Shown here piece after piece: positions 12,796-56,172 of a stretch of 64,000 nt of DNA. This DNA is from an uncultured Burkholderiales bacterium (GTDB taxonomy: Bacteria; Pseudomonadota; Gammaproteobacteria; Burkholderiales; Burkholderiaceae_C). A program made the translations under genes and the position numbers. The notes under the pieces were generated by a model. The model ran no database searches. It was not told the origin of the DNA and was given only the letters and a program-made list of their open reading frames with translations. The stretch lies in contig CAIZHQ010000013.1 of assembly GCA_903932865.1 (NCBI GenBank), positions 1 through 64,000 of the forward strand, given 5' to 3'. How positions within the stretch are numbered: position 1 is the stretch's first letter; each line of letters opens with the position of its first letter.

Positions 12796-13899
12796 TCATC
12801 GCTGGGGCCACCACGGCAGACATTGCTTGAGCGATTGGATCTGACCGGCTTCTTCGTGCAAGCGATAACCCGTTTGTTGGCTCAGCAGGTGCTGCCATTC
12901 GCCGCTCTGCAAAACCTGCCGCAAGGCGATCACGGCCGGGTTGTTCAAGGCCGATTTCAGGCACACCAGCCAGTAGTGCTCTTGTGTCAGGGGCACAAAA
13001 TCCAGTTTTTGGGCGTGCGCAGCCGATGCGATGCCCAGCCCCAAATCTGCGTGGCCCGATGCGATGCGGGTGGCCACAGCAGAGTGCGAGGGCTCTTCGT
13101 GGTCGTAGCCCGTGGGAAGGCTTGCCGATGGGGTCTGGTTTTCCAGCCATTGGTCAAGCAGCAATCGGGTGCCCGTACCCAGTGTCCGGTTGACCAGTCG
13201 CAGCTCAGGTCGTTTCAGGTCGTGCCAACCCGTGATGTTCAGGGGGTTACCCGGGGTCACCATCCAGCCTTGTTCACGGGTGGCAAATCCAATCAATTTG
13301 TGCTGGCCGGTTTTCAGCAAGGGCTTGTAAGTGCGGGCGGTCAAGGTGCTGGCATCGGGTTGCAAGGGGGCATGAAACCCCGCGACCGTGCATCGGCCTT
13401 CATTCAAGGCGCGAATCGCGTCTACACTGCCACAAAAACGCATGTCCAAGTGCAGTGATTGGCGGGCACTGTGCTCCCTGAGTTTGACCAGCGCGTCGTC
13501 GTGGCTGGCGTAGACCGTTAACAAATGGCTGCCAGGGTCAAAGGCCACTGCAAATGTTTTTTCCAGTTCGGCTTGCAAGGCGCTGATCTGCGGCGCCAGT
13601 CGGGCTTGCGCCTGTCGTTCGGCCCACAGCAGCTTGTCGGCAAATTCCGTCAGGCGGGCGGCCTGGCCTTTTTCCCAAAGGATCAAAGGCTGGCCGAGCA
13701 CTTGTTCCCAGCGTTTGAGTTCGCCCCAAACATGGCGATAGGACAACTTCAAAACCCGGGCTGCGCCCGCAATAGAGCCGGTTTCACGCACGGCTTGCAG
13801 CATGTCCATCAAGGGGTTGCGCAAAGGGCTACTTTGGTCACGCTGCTCGGTTTGCGCTTGGTGGGGCGTCCAGCTGTAAGAGAGGTTGATGTGTTGCAC
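12796..13899 (-). CDS. ModE-like HTH regulator with periplasmic-binding-protein-like domain
   Basis: A 367-residue regulator. Residues about 30-95 form a ModE/LysR-like winged helix (ETGSIAGAARVLKLSYRHVWGEL). The C-terminal two-thirds resemble a type-2 periplasmic-binding fold (VNRTLGTGTRLLLDQWL; SHSAVATRIASGHADLGLGI). Proteins of this design are found beside molybdate or tungstate genes and sense the oxyanion or cofactor in the cytosol. Here it is divergent from tupBCA, with an 18-bp palindrome in the shared 117-base gap. The start is a GTG at 13897-13899 with no clear ribosome site, so the N-terminus is uncertain. Tungsten sensing is inferred from neighbours. Confidence 0.82.
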   Translation of the reverse strand: MQHINLSYSWTPHQAQTEQRDQSSPLRNPLMDMLQAVRETGSIAGAARVLKLSYRHVWGELKRWEQVLGQPLILWEKGQAARLTEFADKLLWAERQAQARLAPQISALQAELEKTFAVAFDPGSHLLTVYASHDDALVKLREHSARQSLHLDMRFCGSVDAIRALNEGRCTVAGFHAPLQPDASTLTARTYKPLLKTGQHKLIGFATREQGWMVTPGNPLNITGWHDLKRPELRLVNRTLGTGTRLLLDQWLENQTPSASLPTGYDHEEPSHSAVATRIASGHADLGLGIASAAHAQKLDFVPLTQEHYWLVCLKSALNNPAVIALRQVLQSGEWQHLLSQQTGYRLHEEAGQIQSLKQCLPWWPQR

Positions 13900-13953: not shown

Positions 13954-13971
13954 TATGCAATGCATTTCATA
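13954..13971. promoter_or_regulatory. Candidate operator, copy 1 (TATG-N10-CATA palindrome)
   Basis: The sequence TATGCAATGCATTTCATA is self-complementary at 16 of 18 positions. It sits 46 bases upstream of tupB and 55 bases upstream of the ModE-like regulator start. A matching site with the same spacing lies at 16454-16471 ahead of the AOR operon. It is a likely binding site for the neighbouring regulator; binding is inferred. Confidence 0.6.
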
Positions 13972-14016
13972 ACGGACATCCCTTAGAGGTTCAGCTGTTT
14001 TCGTCCAGTAGCATCC

Positions 14017-14769
14017 ATGCCAGTTATGAACACTTTCACCGACAGCGTCCTGACGGCGCTGAACCTCGTCTCTTCTTTCGATCCTGCACTGTGGGTGGTG
14101 GTCACGCGCTCCTTGGCCGTCAGTGCCACGGCCTGCCTGCTGGCCTATGGCGTGGGCGTGGCGCTGGGAGCCTGGTTGGCGGTGTCGCGTTTTCGTGGCC
14201 GGGGCGCAGTGCTGGTGGGCCTGAACACTTTGCTGGCGCTGCCCTCGGTGGTGGTGGGCCTGGTGGTGTATTTGCTGCTGTCCCGCACCGGGCCTTTTGG
14301 CTTTTTGGGCTGGATGTTCAGCTTTCAGGCGATGGTGCTGGCCCAGTTCATTTTGGTGGTGCCGGTGGTGGCCGCGCTCACGCGCCAAGTGGTCGAAGAT
14401 GTGGAGCGCCAGCACGGTGAGCAATGGGCCTCGCTGGGTGCAGGGCCTTGGCTGCGCAGCTTGTTGCTGGCTTGGGATGAACGATTGGCCTTGCTGACGA
14501 TTGGTGTGACCGCTTTTGGCCGCGCCATCTCGGAGGTGGGCGCGGTGATGATCGTGGGCGGCAACATCGACGGCTTCACCCGGGTGATGACCACCTCGAT
14601 TGCGCTGGAAACCAGCAAGGGCGACCTGCCCTTGGCGCTGGGGCTGGGCATGGTGCTGCTGGCGGTGGTGCTGTTGCTCAACACCTTGGTGGCGGGTTTG
14701 CGGCGTTGGGGTGAGGCGCGCCATGGGCGGCCAGTGGCGGCCGATGGGCTGGTGGGTGTGCAGCCATGA
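14017..14769 (+). CDS. tupB: Tungstate ABC transporter permease
   Basis: A 250-residue inner-membrane permease with about five to six helices. It has the cytosolic coupling motif around EQWASLGAGPW and then AISEVGAVMIVGGNIDGFTR, a stretch characteristic of TupB-type tungstate permeases. It forms the channel for tungstate brought by TupA and powered by TupC. The ATG at 14017 is used; ATG 14026 is also possible and neither has a strong ribosome site. The 3' end overlaps tupC by four bases (ATGA). It is divergent from the ModE-like regulator. Confidence 0.88.
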   Translation: MPVMNTFTDSVLTALNLVSSFDPALWVVVTRSLAVSATACLLAYGVGVALGAWLAVSRFRGRGAVLVGLNTLLALPSVVVGLVVYLLLSRTGPFGFLGWMFSFQAMVLAQFILVVPVVAALTRQVVEDVERQHGEQWASLGAGPWLRSLLLAWDERLALLTIGVTAFGRAISEVGAVMIVGGNIDGFTRVMTTSIALETSKGDLPLALGLGMVLLAVVLLLNTLVAGLRRWGEARHGRPVAADGLVGVQP

Positions 14770-15488
14770 GCACCGTGCAGATCACGCTGGACGCTGTGAG
14801 CGTCCAGTTGGGGGCACAACAGGCTTTGAAGGACGTGAGCTTGCGCATCGCGGCGGGCGAGCGCGTGGCACTGGTGGGATCCAACGGCTCAGGCAAAAGC
14901 AGCTTGCTGCGCACCTTGCATGGGTTGGTGCCACCCACACAAGGGCAGGTGACTCAAGCGCCGGGTGTGCGCCAAGCCATGCTGTTCCAAAGGCCGCACA
15001 TGCTGCGCCTGTCGGCCTTGAACAATGTGGCGTTGGGCTTGTGGCTGGACCGCGCCCGCGGCCTGAGTTGGTCGGCCGCCCAAGTGCTGGCACAGCAGGC
15101 TTTGCAACGCGTGGGCCTGCAGTCTGTGGCGCAGCAAAACGGCCGCCTGTTGTCGGGTGGGCAGCAGCAGCGCCTGGCCTTGGCCCGCGCCTGGGCGCGT
15201 CACCCAGATGTCTTGTTGCTGGACGAACCCACGGCCAGCCTGGACCCGCATGCCAAACGCGAAGTCGAAGCCCTGATGGCCGACTTTGCCAGTAACCAAG
15301 AGCGCCCCCTGACCCTGGTCTGGGCCAGCCACAACCTGGGCCAAGTTAAACGCCTGGCCACCCGCGTCATATATCTGGAGTTCGGGCAAGTGATGGCCGA
15401 CTTGCCTGTGGCCGATTTTTTCAACCCTGCTGTGCTGGCTGAGCGCAGCCCGGCAGCCCATGCTTTTGTTCAAGGAGAACTTTCATGA
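14766..15488 (+). CDS. tupC: Tungstate ABC transporter ATP-binding protein
   Basis: A 240-residue ABC ATPase. It contains Walker A (GSNGSGKSS, about residues 38-46), the signature LSGGQQQRLALARA, Walker B (VLLLDEPTASLD) and the switch His in WASHN. It couples ATP hydrolysis to tungstate import with TupB. It overlaps tupB at its start and tupA at its end by four bases each, so the three genes are translationally coupled. There is no C-terminal TOBE domain, unlike ModC, which fits the tungstate rather than molybdate family. Confidence 0.9.
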   Translation: MSTVQITLDAVSVQLGAQQALKDVSLRIAAGERVALVGSNGSGKSSLLRTLHGLVPPTQGQVTQAPGVRQAMLFQRPHMLRLSALNNVALGLWLDRARGLSWSAAQVLAQQALQRVGLQSVAQQNGRLLSGGQQQRLALARAWARHPDVLLLDEPTASLDPHAKREVEALMADFASNQERPLTLVWASHNLGQVKRLATRVIYLEFGQVMADLPVADFFNPAVLAERSPAAHAFVQGELS

Positions 15489-16300
15489 CCCATCCGATTT
15501 CATTGACCCGCCGAGCCCTGGTGTGTGCGGTTTTGGCCACCACTTCGGTCTGGGCGCAAGCCCAGTCCATCGTGATGTCGTCCACCACCTCGACCGAGCA
15601 ATCGGGCTTGTTCGCGCACTTGCTGCCCGCCTTTAAAAAGGCCAGCGGGCTGGATGTGAAGGTGGTGGCGTTGGGCACGGGCCAGGCGCTGGACATGGCG
15701 CGCCGGGGTGATGCCGATGTGGTGTTTGTGCACGACCAGGCAGCCGAAGAAAAGTTTGTGGCCGATGGCTTTGGACTCAAGCGCTTGCCCGTGATGTACA
15801 ACGACTTTGTGCTGATCGGCCCCAAGGCCGACCCGGCCGCCACCAAAGGCAAAGACATTGTGGCGGCCTTGGCCAAGTTGTCGGCCGGCAACGCAGCCTT
15901 TGTGTCGCGGGGTGACAAGAGCGGCACGCACGCGGCCGAATTGCGTTTTTGGAAAACGGCCAACCTGACGGACAAGAAAGGCAGCGGCTACAAGGAGTGC
16001 GGCTGCGGCATGGGCCCGGCTTTGAACATTGCGGCCTCTACAGGCGCCTACGTTCTGGCTGACCGCGCCACTTGGCTCAACTTCAAGAACCGCGCTGATC
16101 TGGCCATTTTGGTGGAGGGCGACAACCGCTTGTTCAACCAGTACGGCGTGATGGTGGTCAACCCCGCCAAGCATGCGCACGTCAAGCAGGCCGATGCGCA
16201 GAAGTTTGTGGACTGGATCACCTCGCCTACTGGTCAGGGTGTGATTGCCGATTACAAGATTGGGGGCGAGCAGCTGTTTTTCCCGAACGCGGGCAAGTGA
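15485..16300 (+). CDS. tupA: Tungstate-binding periplasmic protein
   Basis: A 271-residue binding protein with a Sec signal peptide ending WAQAQ. The mature start MSSTTSTEQSGLF matches the TTTS-type oxyanion loop of TupA. The segment VSRGDKSGTHAAE forms the second anion contact. TupA binds tungstate with much higher affinity than molybdate in characterised members. It hands the ion to TupBC. The start overlaps the tupC stop by four bases and ATG 15485 is preceded by AAGGAGAA. A cysteine pair (ECGCG) near residue 173 is present. Confidence 0.9.
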   Translation: MTHPISLTRRALVCAVLATTSVWAQAQSIVMSSTTSTEQSGLFAHLLPAFKKASGLDVKVVALGTGQALDMARRGDADVVFVHDQAAEEKFVADGFGLKRLPVMYNDFVLIGPKADPAATKGKDIVAALAKLSAGNAAFVSRGDKSGTHAAELRFWKTANLTDKKGSGYKECGCGMGPALNIAASTGAYVLADRATWLNFKNRADLAILVEGDNRLFNQYGVMVVNPAKHAHVKQADAQKFVDWITSPTGQGVIADYKIGGEQLFFPNAGK

Positions 16301-16453
16301 TTTGGGCTTTGTGCAAGCTCGATTGGCGATAGATCATTGGGGAGGGCTGTCAGGGGCCTGAAAGGTGCGTTTCAAGCTGAGAATTTTGAGGACAAGTCTG
16401 TCAAACATAGGGTAAATACGGATCGGTTTGCAGGGGCTTGCATGAACAATACC

Positions 16454-16471
16454 TATGCATCCCGATTCATA
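16454..16471. promoter_or_regulatory. Candidate operator, copy 2, before AOR operon
   Basis: TATGCATCCCGATTCATA shares both outer arms and spacing with the site at 13954-13971; over the 21-base block 16452-16472 the common pattern is CCTATGCA, seven bases, TTCATAA with one further match. It lies 42 bases upstream of the ferredoxin-subunit start codon, where it would cover or follow the promoter. It is a probable site for the same regulator. Confidence 0.6.
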
Positions 16472-16512: not shown

Positions 16513-16989
16513 ATGCAGAAAGTCCTGCACATCAATCCGGACAAATGTACCGGCTGCTTGCAGTGCGAAATGGCCTGTTCCTTCGAGAACTACGGCACCT
16601 ACGCCACCTCCAAATCGCGCATCAAGGTGTTTGATTTTCATCACACCGGCAAAAAAGTGCCCTACACCTGCACCCAGTGCGACGAAGCCTGGTGCCTGCA
16701 TGCCTGCCCTGTGGAAGCCATCACCGTGGACAAAGCCACCGGCGCCAAAGTGGTCAACGAATCCACCTGCGTGGGCTGCAAGGTCTGCACCATCGCTTGC
16801 CCCTTCGGCACCATCAACTATGTGCAGGAAACCGGCAAGGTGCAAAAGTGCGACCTGTGCGGCGGTGACCCGGCTTGCGCCGACGCTTGCCCGACCGGCG
16901 CCATCACTTTTGTAGACGCCAATTGGACTGGCATCGACAAGATGAAGCAGTGGGCTGACAAGTTGGGCAATCAGCCCTCGGCCTCTTAA
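16513..16989 (+). CDS. aorA: AOR-associated ferredoxin subunit (multi-[4Fe-4S])
   Basis: A 158-residue polyferredoxin with four cysteine clusters: CTGCLQCEMAC, CTQCDEAWCLHAC, CVGCKVCTIAC and CDLCGGDPACADAC, enough for four [4Fe-4S] centres. It resembles the DMSO-reductase-type electron-transfer subunit fold and matches the AorA subunit described for Aromatoleum AOR. It should carry electrons between the tungsten subunit and the FAD subunit. The ATG at 16513 has AGGAG nine bases upstream; a longer frame from 16438 crosses the candidate operator. AOR follows after 23 bases. Confidence 0.88.
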   Translation: MQKVLHINPDKCTGCLQCEMACSFENYGTYATSKSRIKVFDFHHTGKKVPYTCTQCDEAWCLHACPVEAITVDKATGAKVVNESTCVGCKVCTIACPFGTINYVQETGKVQKCDLCGGDPACADACPTGAITFVDANWTGIDKMKQWADKLGNQPSAS

Positions 16990-17012: not shown

Positions 17013-18860
17013 ATGTCTTGGGCTGGAAAAATTCTTCGTGTCAACCTCACGGCTGGCACCGTCAAATCTGAACCGCTGAACATGGAGTGGGCCAAGGCCT
17101 ACCTGGGTTCGCGCGGTCTGGGCAGCAAATACCTGATCAGCGAGATCGACCCCAAAGTCGATCCCCTGTCGGCCGACAACAAAATCATCTGGGCCACCGG
17201 CCCGCTGACCGGCACCATGGCCTCGACAGGTGGCCGCTACACCGTCATCACCAAGAGCCCGCTCACCGGGGCGATTGCCTGCTCCAATTCAGGCGGCTAT
17301 TGGGGCGCGGAGCTCAAAATGGCCGGTTGGGACATGGTCATTTTTGAAGGCGCATCGGCCAAGCCGGTGTACCTGCACATCAACGACGACGAAGCCGAGT
17401 TGCGCGATGCGAGCCACCTGTGGGGCCAAAGTGTTTGGAAGACCGAGGAAATCCTCAAGTCCAGCTTGCAAGACCCGTTGCTGCGCGTTTGCAGCATCGG
17501 CAAGGCCGGTGAAAACGGCGTGCTGTATGCCGCTGTGGTGAACGACCTGCACCGAGCGGCTGGCCGCTCGGGCGTGGGCACCGTGATGGGCAGCAAGAAC
17601 CTGAAAGCCATCGCGGTGCGCGGCACCAAAGGCGTGGGCAACATGCAAAACCCCAAGGCGTTCATGGCTGCGGCCAAGGCGGCCAAGAAAGTGTTGGCCG
17701 ATAACGCCGTCACCGGCCAGGGCCTGCCTGCTTATGGCACGCAGGTGCTGATGAACGTGATCAACGAAATCGGTGGCTTGCCTACCCGCAACCACCGCGA
17801 TGTGCAGTTTGAAAGCGCCAAAGACATCTCGGCCGAAGCCATGGTCACGCCCCGCGAGACCGATGGCAAAAAGCACCTGGTGACCAACCAGGCTTGTTTT
17901 GGTTGCACCATTGCTTGCGGTCGCATCAGCAAGATGGATGAGGGCCATTTCTCGGTCAAGAACAAGCCGGAGTATTGGGGCGCCAACGGCGGCCTGGAAT
18001 ACGAAGCGGCTTGGGCGCTGGGCGCAGCCAACGGCGTCAAGGACCTGGAAGCTTTGCAGTACGCGAACATGATTTGCAACGAAGAAGGCTTTGACCCGAT
18101 CAGCTTTGGCACCACCATTGGTGCCGTGATGGAGCTGTATGAAATGGGTGTGCTGACCAAAGAGCAAATCGGTGTGGCAGCACCCTTTGGCTCAGCCGAA
18201 GCCTTGTGCGAGTTTGTCGACATGACCGCCAAGGGCATCGGTTTTGGCAAGGAAATTGGCATGGGCTCCAAGCGCCTGACCGCCAAATACGGCCACCCCG
18301 ATTTGTCCATGAGTGTCAAGGGCCAAGAGTTCCCGGCCTATGACGGTCGCGTGATCCAGGGCATCGGCTTGGCTTATGCCACTTCCAACCGTGGTGCTTG
18401 CCACCTGCGCGGCTACACCATCGCCTCTGAAGTGCTGGGCATCCCGGTCAAGACCGAACCCACCGAGCACGAAGGCAAGCCCGAACTGGTCAAGGCCTTC
18501 CAAGACGCGACAGCCGCTTTTGACTCGGCAGGCATTTGCGTCTTCACGAGCTTTGCCTGGACGCTGGCCGACGTGGCCCCGCAGATCCAAGCGGCTTGTG
18601 GCGAAGAGTTCACCATGGAGCACTTGAACCACATCGGCGAGCGCATCTGGAACATGGAGCGCGAGTTCAACAACGCCGCCGGCTTCACCAAGGCCGACGA
18701 CAACCTGCCCAAGCGCCTGATGACTGAAGCCGCCAAAACCGGCCCTGGCAAAGGCATGGTCAGCAAGTTGGACGAAATGTTGCCCAAGTACTACGACGCG
18801 CGCGGTTGGGATGGCGAAGGCCGCCCCACATCGGCCACCCGGGAACGTCTGGGGCTGTGA
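17013..18860 (+). CDS. aorB: Tungsten-containing aldehyde:ferredoxin oxidoreductase
   Basis: A 615-residue member of the AOR family. It oxidises aldehydes to carboxylates at a tungsten bis-pterin site. Cluster ligands are the CFGCTIAC motif (about residues 294-301) and the distal Cys in FDSAGICVF (about residue 508), where DxxGxC also contacts the pterin. The N-terminal domain has GSRGLGSKYL and the pterin-contact TGGRYTV. Length and motifs agree with the bacterial AorB subtype that works with ferredoxin-like and FAD subunits, encoded on both sides here. Start ATG 17013 follows AAGGAG. Its physiological aldehyde is unknown; formaldehyde, acetaldehyde or aromatic aldehydes are all possible. 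Confidence 0.93.
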   Translation: MSWAGKILRVNLTAGTVKSEPLNMEWAKAYLGSRGLGSKYLISEIDPKVDPLSADNKIIWATGPLTGTMASTGGRYTVITKSPLTGAIACSNSGGYWGAELKMAGWDMVIFEGASAKPVYLHINDDEAELRDASHLWGQSVWKTEEILKSSLQDPLLRVCSIGKAGENGVLYAAVVNDLHRAAGRSGVGTVMGSKNLKAIAVRGTKGVGNMQNPKAFMAAAKAAKKVLADNAVTGQGLPAYGTQVLMNVINEIGGLPTRNHRDVQFESAKDISAEAMVTPRETDGKKHLVTNQACFGCTIACGRISKMDEGHFSVKNKPEYWGANGGLEYEAAWALGAANGVKDLEALQYANMICNEEGFDPISFGTTIGAVMELYEMGVLTKEQIGVAAPFGSAEALCEFVDMTAKGIGFGKEIGMGSKRLTAKYGHPDLSMSVKGQEFPAYDGRVIQGIGLAYATSNRGACHLRGYTIASEVLGIPVKTEPTEHEGKPELVKAFQDATAAFDSAGICVFTSFAWTLADVAPQIQAACGEEFTMEHLNHIGERIWNMEREFNNAAGFTKADDNLPKRLMTEAAKTGPGKGMVSKLDEMLPKYYDARGWDGEGRPTSATRERLGL

Positions 18861-18966: not shown

Positions 18967-20307
18967 ATGACCCACCACGTGATTTTGGGCGCAGGCCCTG
19001 CTGGCGTGATCGCCGCTGAAACCATCCGCAAGCATGCGCCGGGTGACACCATCACCTTGATTGGCGACGAGCCCGATGCGCCTTACTCGCGCATGGCCAT
19101 ACCTTATCTGCTGATTGGCAACATCGACGAGCGCGGCACTTACCTGCGCAAAAGCGACGCCCACTTTGACGAACTGTGCATCACTCAAGTCAAAGCCAAA
19201 GTGACGCGTGTGGATTCAACGGGCAAAACCGTGCACTTGGACAACGGCAAGTCATTGGCTTTTGACAAGCTCTTGATCGCCACTGGCTCGCACCCCGTGC
19301 GCCCCCCGATTGCGGGCATGGACCTGCCCGGTGTGCACCCGTGCTGGACGCTGGAAGACGCCCGCGCTATCCAGGCTTTGGCCCAACCCGGCGCACGTGT
19401 TTTGCAAATGGGTGCAGGCTTCATTGGCTGCATCATCATGGAAGCCTTGGCGGCGCGTGGCGTCAAGCTCAGCGTGGTCGAGATGGGCGACCGCATGGTG
19501 CCCCGCATGATGGGCCCGGTGGCCGGCGGCATGATCCGCGATTGGTGCGAGGCCAAGGGCGTGCAGGTGTTCACCGGCACCAAGGTTGAAGCCATCAGCC
19601 GTGGCGAAGAAAAAGGCTTGCTCGGCAAACTGGCCGCGGCGGTGGGTCTAGGGTCTGACGATGCCAGCGGTGCGCTGCAGGTGCGTTTGTCCAATGGCCA
19701 AACCGTCGAGGCCGATCTGGTCATCAGTGCCACCGGCGTGCGTCCGGCCATTGGATTTTTGAAAGACAGCGGCATCACCTGCCTGCAAGGCGTGTTGACC
19801 GACGAGCACCTGCAAACCAATGTGCCTGGCATCTATGCAGCCGGCGACTGCGCTGAAGCGTTTGACATGGTCAGCGGCAAAACCATCGTCAGCGCCATTC
19901 AGCCCAACGCCGCCGAGCAGGCCCGTGTGGCGGCACTGAACATGCTGGGTCAAAAAACCGCCCTCAAAGGCGTCACGCAAATCAACGTGCTGGACACCCT
20001 GGGTTTGATCTCGACCAGTTTTGGCAACTGGGAAGGCGTGGCCGGTGGCCAGTCTGCCGTGCTGACCGACAAAGCTGCTGGACGGCACTTGAGCTTGCAG
20101 TTCAAGGACGATGTGATGGTGGGCTGCAACAGCGTAGGCTGGACCGAGCATGTGGGCGTGATGCGTGGCCTGGTCGAAGGCCAGGTGCACCTGGGCGACT
20201 GGAAAGACCGCCTGCTGCACGACCCGACCAAACTGATGGACGCTTATCTGGACTGCGCGCAGGGTCAGGGGCGATGGAGTGGCGCCGCCGATGCACGTCG
20301 CCGCTGA
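18967..20307 (+). CDS. aorC: FAD/NAD(P)-dependent oxidoreductase subunit of AOR complex
   Basis: A 446-residue pyridine nucleotide-disulfide-type flavoprotein without a redox-active disulfide. It has GAGPAG for FAD near the N-terminus, GAGFIG for NAD(H) near residue 150, and the second FAD motif YAAGDCAEA near residue 290. It probably links the AOR ferredoxin subunit to NAD+, as the AorC subunit does in Aromatoleum. The ATG at 18967 has GGAG six bases upstream; the longer frame from 18811 overlaps aorB and is ignored. An insert rich in Gly/Lys (EEKGLLGKLAAAVGLG) occurs near residue 220. Confidence 0.88.
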   Translation: MTHHVILGAGPAGVIAAETIRKHAPGDTITLIGDEPDAPYSRMAIPYLLIGNIDERGTYLRKSDAHFDELCITQVKAKVTRVDSTGKTVHLDNGKSLAFDKLLIATGSHPVRPPIAGMDLPGVHPCWTLEDARAIQALAQPGARVLQMGAGFIGCIIMEALAARGVKLSVVEMGDRMVPRMMGPVAGGMIRDWCEAKGVQVFTGTKVEAISRGEEKGLLGKLAAAVGLGSDDASGALQVRLSNGQTVEADLVISATGVRPAIGFLKDSGITCLQGVLTDEHLQTNVPGIYAAGDCAEAFDMVSGKTIVSAIQPNAAEQARVAALNMLGQKTALKGVTQINVLDTLGLISTSFGNWEGVAGGQSAVLTDKAAGRHLSLQFKDDVMVGCNSVGWTEHVGVMRGLVEGQVHLGDWKDRLLHDPTKLMDAYLDCAQGQGRWSGAADARRR

Positions 20308-20322
20308 AGCGACAATCTGCGC

Positions 20323-20577
20323 ATGAACATCACATTCAAACTGTTTGCCACACTGACCGACTACTTGCCTGCTGAAGCCCGGCGCAGCAACCAGGTGACG
20401 CTGGACGTAGCGCAGGACACCCCCATCAGCCAGATCATCGAGCCCTTTGGCATACCCCCGAAGCTTGTGCATCTGGTGCTGGTCAACGGCAAATACGTCA
20501 ATCCCGAAGACCGGGGCACCACCACTTTGGCCGAAGGCGACGTGTTGGCGATCTGGCCACCTGTAGCCGGCGGCTGA
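20323..20577 (+). CDS. aorD: MoaD/ThiS-like sulfur carrier protein
   Basis: An 84-residue ubiquitin-fold protein ending in the Gly-Gly tail (PPVAGG) needed for adenylation and thiocarboxylate formation. Such proteins supply sulfur for the pterin dithiolene. The position after the FAD subunit fits an AOR-dedicated MoaD paralogue that helps build the tungsten cofactor. No partner MoaE or MoeB/ThiF-like gene is present in the window, so it must use housekeeping enzymes. It begins 15 bases after aorC. Confidence 0.85.
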   Translation: MNITFKLFATLTDYLPAEARRSNQVTLDVAQDTPISQIIEPFGIPPKLVHLVLVNGKYVNPEDRGTTTLAEGDVLAIWPPVAGG

Positions 20578-55995: not shown

Positions 55996-56172
55996 ATGAA
56001 ATTTTTTTTTATTTGTGCAACCGCGTTCATATTGCTAGGCTGCCAGTCCGAGATTGATAAATGTGTCGATGCAGGTCTCAGAGCCAATGAACCTTACAAA
56101 ACTGCACAAGAGAAATCTGAAACGGAGATGCAATTCAGGATGGCTTGTCTGAAGGCATCTGCAGGAAAGTAA
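55996..56172 (+). CDS. Small lipoprotein, 58 aa
   Basis: A frame from ATG 55996 to TAA 56170-56172 encodes a 58-residue protein. The signal ends with the lipobox LLGC at Cys16, then a short charged mature part with two more cysteines (KCVDAG, MACLKA). Its size suggests an envelope lipoprotein or exclusion-type factor. It is short enough to be missed in routine annotation. Confidence 0.6.
   Translation: MKFFFICATAFILLGCQSEIDKCVDAGLRANEPYKTAQEKSETEMQFRMACLKASAGK

Follow-up and report, generated by a model that had tools for sequence, protein, structure and literature searches.

The choice between tungsten and molybdenum enzymes in aerobic and facultative bacteria has, to our knowledge, been little explored. 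Among the closest described regulators, E. coli ModE binds DNA in its molybdate form, and TunR of sulfate reducers combines a XerC/D-like DNA-binding domain with a Mop sensor and a 30-bp site. TaoR of Desulfovibrio vulgaris is said to possess an excisionase-type DNA-binding domain and reportedly activates the aldehyde oxidoreductase (AOR) genes aor and represses the tungstate transporter genes tup when tungsten is replete. Here, a palindrome, TATGCA-N6-TTCATA, was investigated in a stretch of 64,000 nucleotides from an uncultured Burkholderiales bacterium (assembly GCA_903932865.1, contig CAIZHQ010000013.1, positions 1 to 64,000 of the forward strand; hereafter the window), where it occurs once before a tup operon and once before an aor operon, close to the gene of a ModE- and LysR-related regulator. 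Comparison of related genomes suggests that the palindrome is a tungsten-regulon operator of freshwater bacteria, recurring before tungsten and molybdenum genes in many relatives. That one regulator serves aor and tup oppositely is already known by report from TaoR, and the operator geometry is known from ModE. The combination of a ModE/LysR helix-turn-helix (HTH), a PF12727 sensor, the operator TATGMA-N6-TKCATA, two position classes and AcoR/aldehyde dehydrogenase in the regulon was not encountered in the literature covered, which did not extend to subscription papers or RegPrecise and in which no publication on this regulator or operator was found. In a passage of PMC10102598 that cites Rajeev et al. 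2019, DVU3193 is called 'tupR', a regulator of tungstate uptake.

Both copies of the palindrome are on the forward strand, operator 1 at 13954-13971 (TATGCAATGCATTTCATA), between the regulator gene and tupBCA, and operator 2 at 16454-16471 (TATGCATCCCGATTCATA), before aorABC. This agrees with an earlier note on this DNA, which had reported two 18-mers with common outer arms at the same spacing. The shared block does extend beyond the arms, as claimed there, but its spacer is N6 and not N7 (CCTATGCA-N6-TTCATAA); operator 2 does precede the AOR operon, but by 41 bases to the aorA ATG at 16513 and not by 42. The palindrome itself is present but imperfect, with one of the six base pairs mismatched (C against T). 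The mismatch is conserved and oriented, since with one mismatch tolerated a distal C and a proximal T were observed in 78 of 91 distinct tup sites and in 37 of 41 aor sites. In a scan of the whole genome (3,772,854 bases), the looser pattern TATGMA-N6-TKCATA was found in two places only, tup and aor, each on both strands, while the backwards pattern used as a control was found in none. A weaker test, allowing up to two mismatches within the window, yielded six matches against 1.85 expected, four of the six being the same two sites on both strands. Because of the uniqueness in the genome and the genus and family scans described below, a chance origin of the operator pair was rejected. With one mismatch, TATGCA-N6-TTCATA has a single further copy genome-wide, at 56014-56031 of the window (TGTGCAACCGCGTTCATA), which was located by eye just within the apparent start of a short lipoprotein gene and is probably due to chance.

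The regulator gene occupies 12796..13899 on the reverse strand, with a GTG start at 13899, and is divergent from tupBCA. Its product comprises an HTH_1/ModE-like HTH (residues ~30-108), a linker helix (85-120) and a PF12727 PBP_like sensor, i.e. a periplasmic-binding-protein (PBP) domain. PF12727 and HTH_1 each matched all 52 aligned members of the regulator family; LysR_substrate matched 20 of the 52 at E<=0.01 and stayed below its cut-off in the window protein, whose best sensor match was PF12727. Neither TOBE nor PF12728 was among the 14 families matched at E<=0.01 in these 52 members. The ModE HTH model TIGR00637 gave 41.9 bits, under its cut-off of 98.5. The ModE search of the regulator's own genome gave four matches, none over the cut-off, and the same genome holds one PF12727 protein and one ModA over their cut-offs, the latter elsewhere than at this locus. 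The 50 Foldseek hits listed for the regulator were LysR-type by title, a few of them putative, and the fold of the sensor domain resembles PstS, ModA, WtpA and TupA. The sensor would be an oxyanion-type PBP domain, with tungstate as its probable effector. The label ModE-like, used in the earlier note, is appropriate for the HTH, which is ModE-related; the protein as a whole departs from ModE, with a PF12727 PBP domain as sensor and a LysR-type layout.

Comparison with the known systems showed both likenesses and differences. The box of E. coli ModE is given as TATATA-N6-TATATA in the relevant part of PMC545781. The operators have six-base halves, the N6 spacer, the outer TAT and the inner A of each half in common, so that the claim of an operator unlike the ModE box is true of the middle bases and the outer CG and not of these features. 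The box ATCGNTATATA-N6-TATATANCGAT is not matched, the halves here being TATGMA/TKCATA without the outer CG. The regulator likewise shares a TIGR00637-related HTH with ModE, but it has a PBP sensor in place of a Mop/TOBE match. HTH_1, linker helix and PBP effector domain are all shared with LysR-type regulators, from which the protein differs in its preference for PF12727 over LysR_substrate and the operator in that the invariant bases of TATGMA-N6-TKCATA do not contain T-N11-A (judged from the consensus). TaoR would be alike, one regulator serving the tungstate transporter and the aldehyde oxidoreductase with opposite effects; in the present system, the operator is present at both, and the opposite effects are predicted from its position. 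It differs in its reportedly excisionase-type domain, against HTH_1 throughout the present family with PF12728 not listed, and the position classes described below suggest a mirror-image sign. TunR would resemble the present regulator in activating an oxyanion transporter under the control of tungstate, with less activation in its presence.

The earlier note had pointed to orthologous promoters as the place to look for the palindrome, and there it was found. Among 55 relatives of the regulator, the operator was present at tup in 39 loci and at aorA in 22, in each case in addition to the window. Within the genus, the loose pattern was observed in 51 of 60 genomes, including all 36 with a completeness of 90% or more and a contamination of 5% or less; the count of 51 includes BoxR-type matches, seen in G059 and G033 and forming the sole match in at least one genome (G039). 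BzdR/BoxR recognises TGCA repeats, and BoxR-type sites (TATGCACTTTACTGCATA and its reverse complement; L090, L094), located between boxR-like and benzoate-CoA-ligase-like genes (named by eye), fit the loose pattern and were set aside as those of another regulator. Within the family, a relative of the regulator was detected in 73 of 150 genomes, in 62 of them at >=44% identity, and TATGMA-N6-TTCATA in 52 of 150. The asymmetric site occurred in 42 of the 62 regulator-bearing genomes versus 5 of the 88 others (Fisher p 2e-16, kinship ignored), the latter dividing into 0 of 11 with only a 35-40% homologue and 5 of 77 with no homologue. Of 250 genomes in the order, 13 had a regulator above the strict cut-off, among them that of the window. 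The palindrome tracks the regulator gene across genomes, which supports the pairing of the two proposed earlier.

Near the regulator start (between 350 bp 5' of it and 60 bp into the gene), 66 of the 106 distinct loci with >=44% identity had the exact site, a further five had it with one mismatch and another five with two; the backwards control always showed at least three mismatches. Many sites overlap the projected start of the regulator (distances -1 to -31), so that autoregulation is likely as well. Autoregulation as the sole role is refuted by the sites at aor, at the formate dehydrogenase genes fdh and at acoR, which are distant from the regulator, and that the sites represent only this or a chance or structural repeat is hardly credible. 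Fourteen of the 30 loci with at least three mismatches belong to Limnohabitans, where regulator and tup lie apart (L019, L020, L022-L028, L030-L034). In 13 of these (L019, L020, L022-L028, L030, L032-L034) the operator stays at tup, with no regulator start adjacent; in L031 an exact site was found, and the contig is too short to reach tup. In several separated loci a terminator-like hairpin with a T run could be seen by eye ~10 bp 5' of the operator, so that the tup promoter must lie on the operator's side of the hairpin. The 13 Limnohabitans sites would also be expected if another transcription factor read the palindrome and the ModE-like gene were merely adjacent, as would the location at tup or fdh of three of the six asymmetric sites that come from genomes in which no regulator was detected. 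Such a factor is nevertheless improbable, since operator and regulator gene co-occur across genomes, stand together beside a molybdenum (Mo) hydroxylase, and the window's own genome offers a single PF12727 protein and no ModE over the cut-off.

The copies beside the Mo-hydroxylase (L004, L007, L008; at 9929) are 91-92% identical to the regulator and lie, with the same operator, next to a Mo-hydroxylase of the CO-dehydrogenase type (Pfam run on L004 only). In L007 and L008, another regulator copy, linked to tup, occurs in the same record (L013, L024). Two loci labelled Akkermansia muciniphila MAG (L034) and Phycisphaerales (L056) carry regulator sequences matching at 67% and 82%, respectively, the latter in a short end piece; these are perhaps mis-binned contigs.

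The two-target regulon predicted in the earlier note holds for this genome, where the exact pattern occurs at tup and aor only. To judge from the genes next to the sites, the regulon is larger family-wide and extends to fdh, to genes for Mo-hydroxylases and a ModA-like protein, and to the pair of acoR and an aldehyde dehydrogenase gene. In regulator-bearing family genomes, 27 of the 32 asymmetric sites away from the regulator were at aor (13), fdh or an fdh-neighbour (11), acoR (2) or tup (1); symmetric TATGAA-N6-TTCATA sites are omitted from this set, and G179:1319072 was scored as fdh-neighbour by an FdsB-like gene ~2 kb on (by eye). The remaining five had no Mo or tungsten (W) neighbour and were assigned by eye to genes for an H-NS-like protein, a porin, a boxC-like protein, an amino-acid-binding protein and an unknown protein. 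The label fused-beta fdh was given by eye together with 30-36% matches to fdsG and fdsB, and the labels of L159, L162, L167, L171, L174, L175 and L219 repeat their own Pfam or by-eye label, the query being the classified locus.

In an additional scan, 116 of 399 family genomes had a match. Among the matches listed, 82 sites from 64 new genomes comprised 49 at tup in forward and two in reversed orientation, 12 at aor, six at fdh (three fdhTat, two fused-beta, one fdnG), four at acoR, two at coxS, one at a weakly assigned aldehyde dehydrogenase gene and six unassigned. The genus added coxSL-type Mo-hydroxylase genes by the regulator copy (L004, L007, L008), a ModA-like gene (L088) and iorA/B-type hydroxylases (L092, L093). 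Operator-bearing acoR genes (L163, L174, L247, L257, L259, L305) are divergent from an aldehyde dehydrogenase gene. In L175 and L222 the FdnG-type fdh frame appeared split, perhaps at a selenocysteine codon; the open reading frames in L175 are 195 and 811 aa long.

The earlier note missed that the two operators occupy opposite positions relative to the promoter, from which opposite regulation is predicted. A fixed spacing upstream of a -10 element without a -35 is typical of a polymerase-contacting activator, and a full promoter followed by a loosely spaced operator is typical of a repressor. Promoter elements were predicted from conservation throughout. At tup, a TANNNT hexamer begins 23 bp (33 of 91), 37 bp (40) or 38 bp (10) after the operator, with no other gap seen more than five times (91 distinct sites, <=1 mismatch; top peak in 200 shuffles, 8). 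The distance from the operator to the tupB start varies (31-125), indicating that the hexamer is locked to the operator and not to the gene. In the new genomes, 35 of 49 tup sites had gaps of 23 or 36-38 (shuffle mean 2.1, maximum 8), 34 by gaps named before the test and L296 by gap 36, which had not been named beforehand. The other 14 showed NANAAT at 23/24, by a rule added after they had been viewed; without repeats the two figures were 32 and 14 of 46. Gap 23 was also present in acoR (4/4 new and 2/2 earlier sites) and gap 37 at the ModA-like gene and two Mo-hydroxylase loci (L004, L007), with gap 38 in L311. Operators at tup and acoR thus appear to have activator geometry, 23 or 36-38 bp 5' of a predicted -10 without a good -35. 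GGACA and TTCATA were considered as alternative -35 elements of tup and dropped, as a conserved -10 at workable spacing was absent.

At aor, [CT]AAT was present 3 nt 5' of the operator in 34 of 41 sites, exactly as AACAAT in 32 of them. Among the new forward aor sites it recurred in 7/8 (6/7 without repeats), and tup spacing was observed in 0/8. For fdh, a first test revealed TTGNNN-N17-TANNNT ending 0-15 nt 5' of the operator in 6/7 sites (tup control 0/49; shuffle mean 0.04). When read in gene direction, fdhTat-type sites showed this pattern in 9/9 cases, three of them turned round, L218 and L308 being one promoter. The positions at aor and fdhTat-type fdh are those predicted for a repressor, 0-15 nt 3' of the putative -10 and at or next to the start. 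Fused-beta fdh was dropped as a member of this class, the pattern being found in 0/3. Other readings of the aor promoter were also discarded: an element matching sigma-54 was not found by eye; TAGGGT (gap -64, 23/41) was dropped as a -10, as a matter of judgement, since in other genera it falls within a second palindrome; and an operator between -35 and -10 was likewise abandoned.

We consider it probable, on the strength of these sequence comparisons, that the low-tungsten form of one regulator acts via both palindromes, activating uptake and repressing aor. The ModE-HTH/PBP regulator, divergently encoded, would use both palindromes as operators of a tungsten regulon, which in relatives would include molybdenum. 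In its tungstate-free state it would occupy both, so that tupBCA is on and aorABC blocked, operator 1 being placed for polymerase contact and operator 2 covering the predicted aor start. Cytoplasmic tungstate bound to the PBP domain would then end both activation and block, uptake would drop, and the tungsten enzyme would be produced only with metal at hand. If the DNA-binding form activates tup, that form is the tungsten-scarce one, presumably free of tungstate. From these comparisons we infer the sign of regulation, direct binding, the tungstate effector and the promoter elements; the operator, its conservation, its link to the regulator, its regulon and the two position classes are apparent in the sequences themselves. 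The opposite logic, in which a tungstate-bound form binds DNA, represses tup and activates aor when tungsten is replete, has reported precedents in E. coli ModE and TaoR, would lead to the same physiological outcome and is left some room at aor by the uncertain -10. It is rather unlikely, as the spacing between tup operators and a -10 without -35 takes two rigid values, as expected of an activator, and fdhTat operators lie at variable distance 3' of a complete TTG-N17-TANNNT, as expected of a repressor.

Several observations weigh against activation of uptake and repression of aor by the low-tungsten form. The exact asymmetric site was missing in 20 of 62 regulator-bearing family genomes, and a group at 47-52% identity (L189, L191-L197) had no site within one mismatch near the regulator, although L189 and L194 nonetheless carry one at tup. 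Mo-hydroxylase sites L092, L093 and L256 do not fit activator spacing, and FdnG-type fdh is found at activator gap 36 (L175, L222, L279), so that not all metal-enzyme genes fall into the repressor class. The fdhTat promoter pattern was absent from other fdh (L171; fused-beta; fdsG 0/1). Four turned-round new aor sites (L265, L284, L288, L291) lack [CT]AAT 3 nt upstream, as does turned-round L232, where AACAAT could be seen by eye at 2 nt; this type of aor promoter is hence not universal. In addition, AACAAT lacks the first T and a -35, so that either a second activator is needed or the -10 is misassigned. New and old genomes share genera, and the repeat of the spacing test is therefore not phylogenetically independent.

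Whether a gene is activated or repressed may depend on where the operator lies and not on its sequence, and the analysis provides a concrete candidate operator, regulator and target list over many genera. A wider, tentative proposal, which we hold to be somewhat doubtful, is a tungsten-sparing switch by operator position: at low tungsten, uptake and tungsten-free substitutes would be on and AOR and fdhTat fdh off, with tungstate reversing this. The substitutes might be an NAD-linked aldehyde dehydrogenase via AcoR, Mo-hydroxylases and FdnG-type fdh, the metal preferences of these enzymes being presumed only. AOR and an aldehyde dehydrogenase that needs no metal might in this way be linked by metal sparing. 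According to the part of PMC6365974 concerned, Aromatoleum aromaticum has AOR alongside phenylacetaldehyde dehydrogenase, AOR is five-fold up in the dehydrogenase mutant, and the enzyme is underloaded with tungsten in standard medium. These data fit a need for a tungsten-dependent switch of uptake and aor and are no test of it.

In the window, the divergent regulator gene is followed on the forward strand by tupBCA and then by aorABC and a MoaD/ThiS-like gene. The tup operon encodes a tupB-like permease (14017..14769; NF041773 168 bits, cut-off 320; NF038017 over cut-off), a tupC-like ATPase (14766..15488) and a tupA-like tungstate-binding protein (15485..16300; NF041772 239 bits, cut-off 400). 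It is followed by an aorA-like polyferredoxin subunit (16513..16989), aorB, the aldehyde oxidoreductase large subunit with AFOR_N and AFOR_C (17013..18860), an aorC-like flavoprotein subunit (18967..20307) and the MoaD/ThiS-like maturation protein (20323..20577). This order resembles the aorABCDE operon of A. aromaticum, as described in PMC6365974. The predicted tup -10 TAGCAT (14009..14014, forward strand) lies at gap 37 from operator 1 with no good -35 in between, and the predicted aor -10 AACAAT (16445..16450, forward strand) lies 3 nt 5' of operator 2; transcription would start at ~14021 and ~16457, respectively. Many tupB orthologues start with MNTF, which corresponds to the ATG at 14026. 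The predicted tup start is only a few bases 5' of this ATG (14009-14026), and the tupB mRNA may therefore be near-leaderless in the window and in many relatives. Two elements of Limnohabitans tup promoters could also be recognised by eye in the window, GGACANCCCT 3' of the operator at 13974-13983 and a TGTCC/CGTCC-like match directly 5' of the -10 at 14002-14006.

The aor leader contains a hairpin (16476-16481/16487-16492) in which 92% of cells were paired and three of six pairs were changed on both sides among 13 sequences; slid versions scored far lower, and 47 of 500 shuffles reached three such pairs. In aor promoters of other genera (L142, L143, L133 and others), a second palindrome, CTAGGG-N4-CCCTAG, was noticed by eye 22 bp 5' of AACAAT (~-42); it is degenerate in the window (16407-16422). 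Genomes with this second palindrome often have a gene for a GAF/Fis-HTH regulator in divergent orientation to aor, and its product could be the protein that reads the palindrome.

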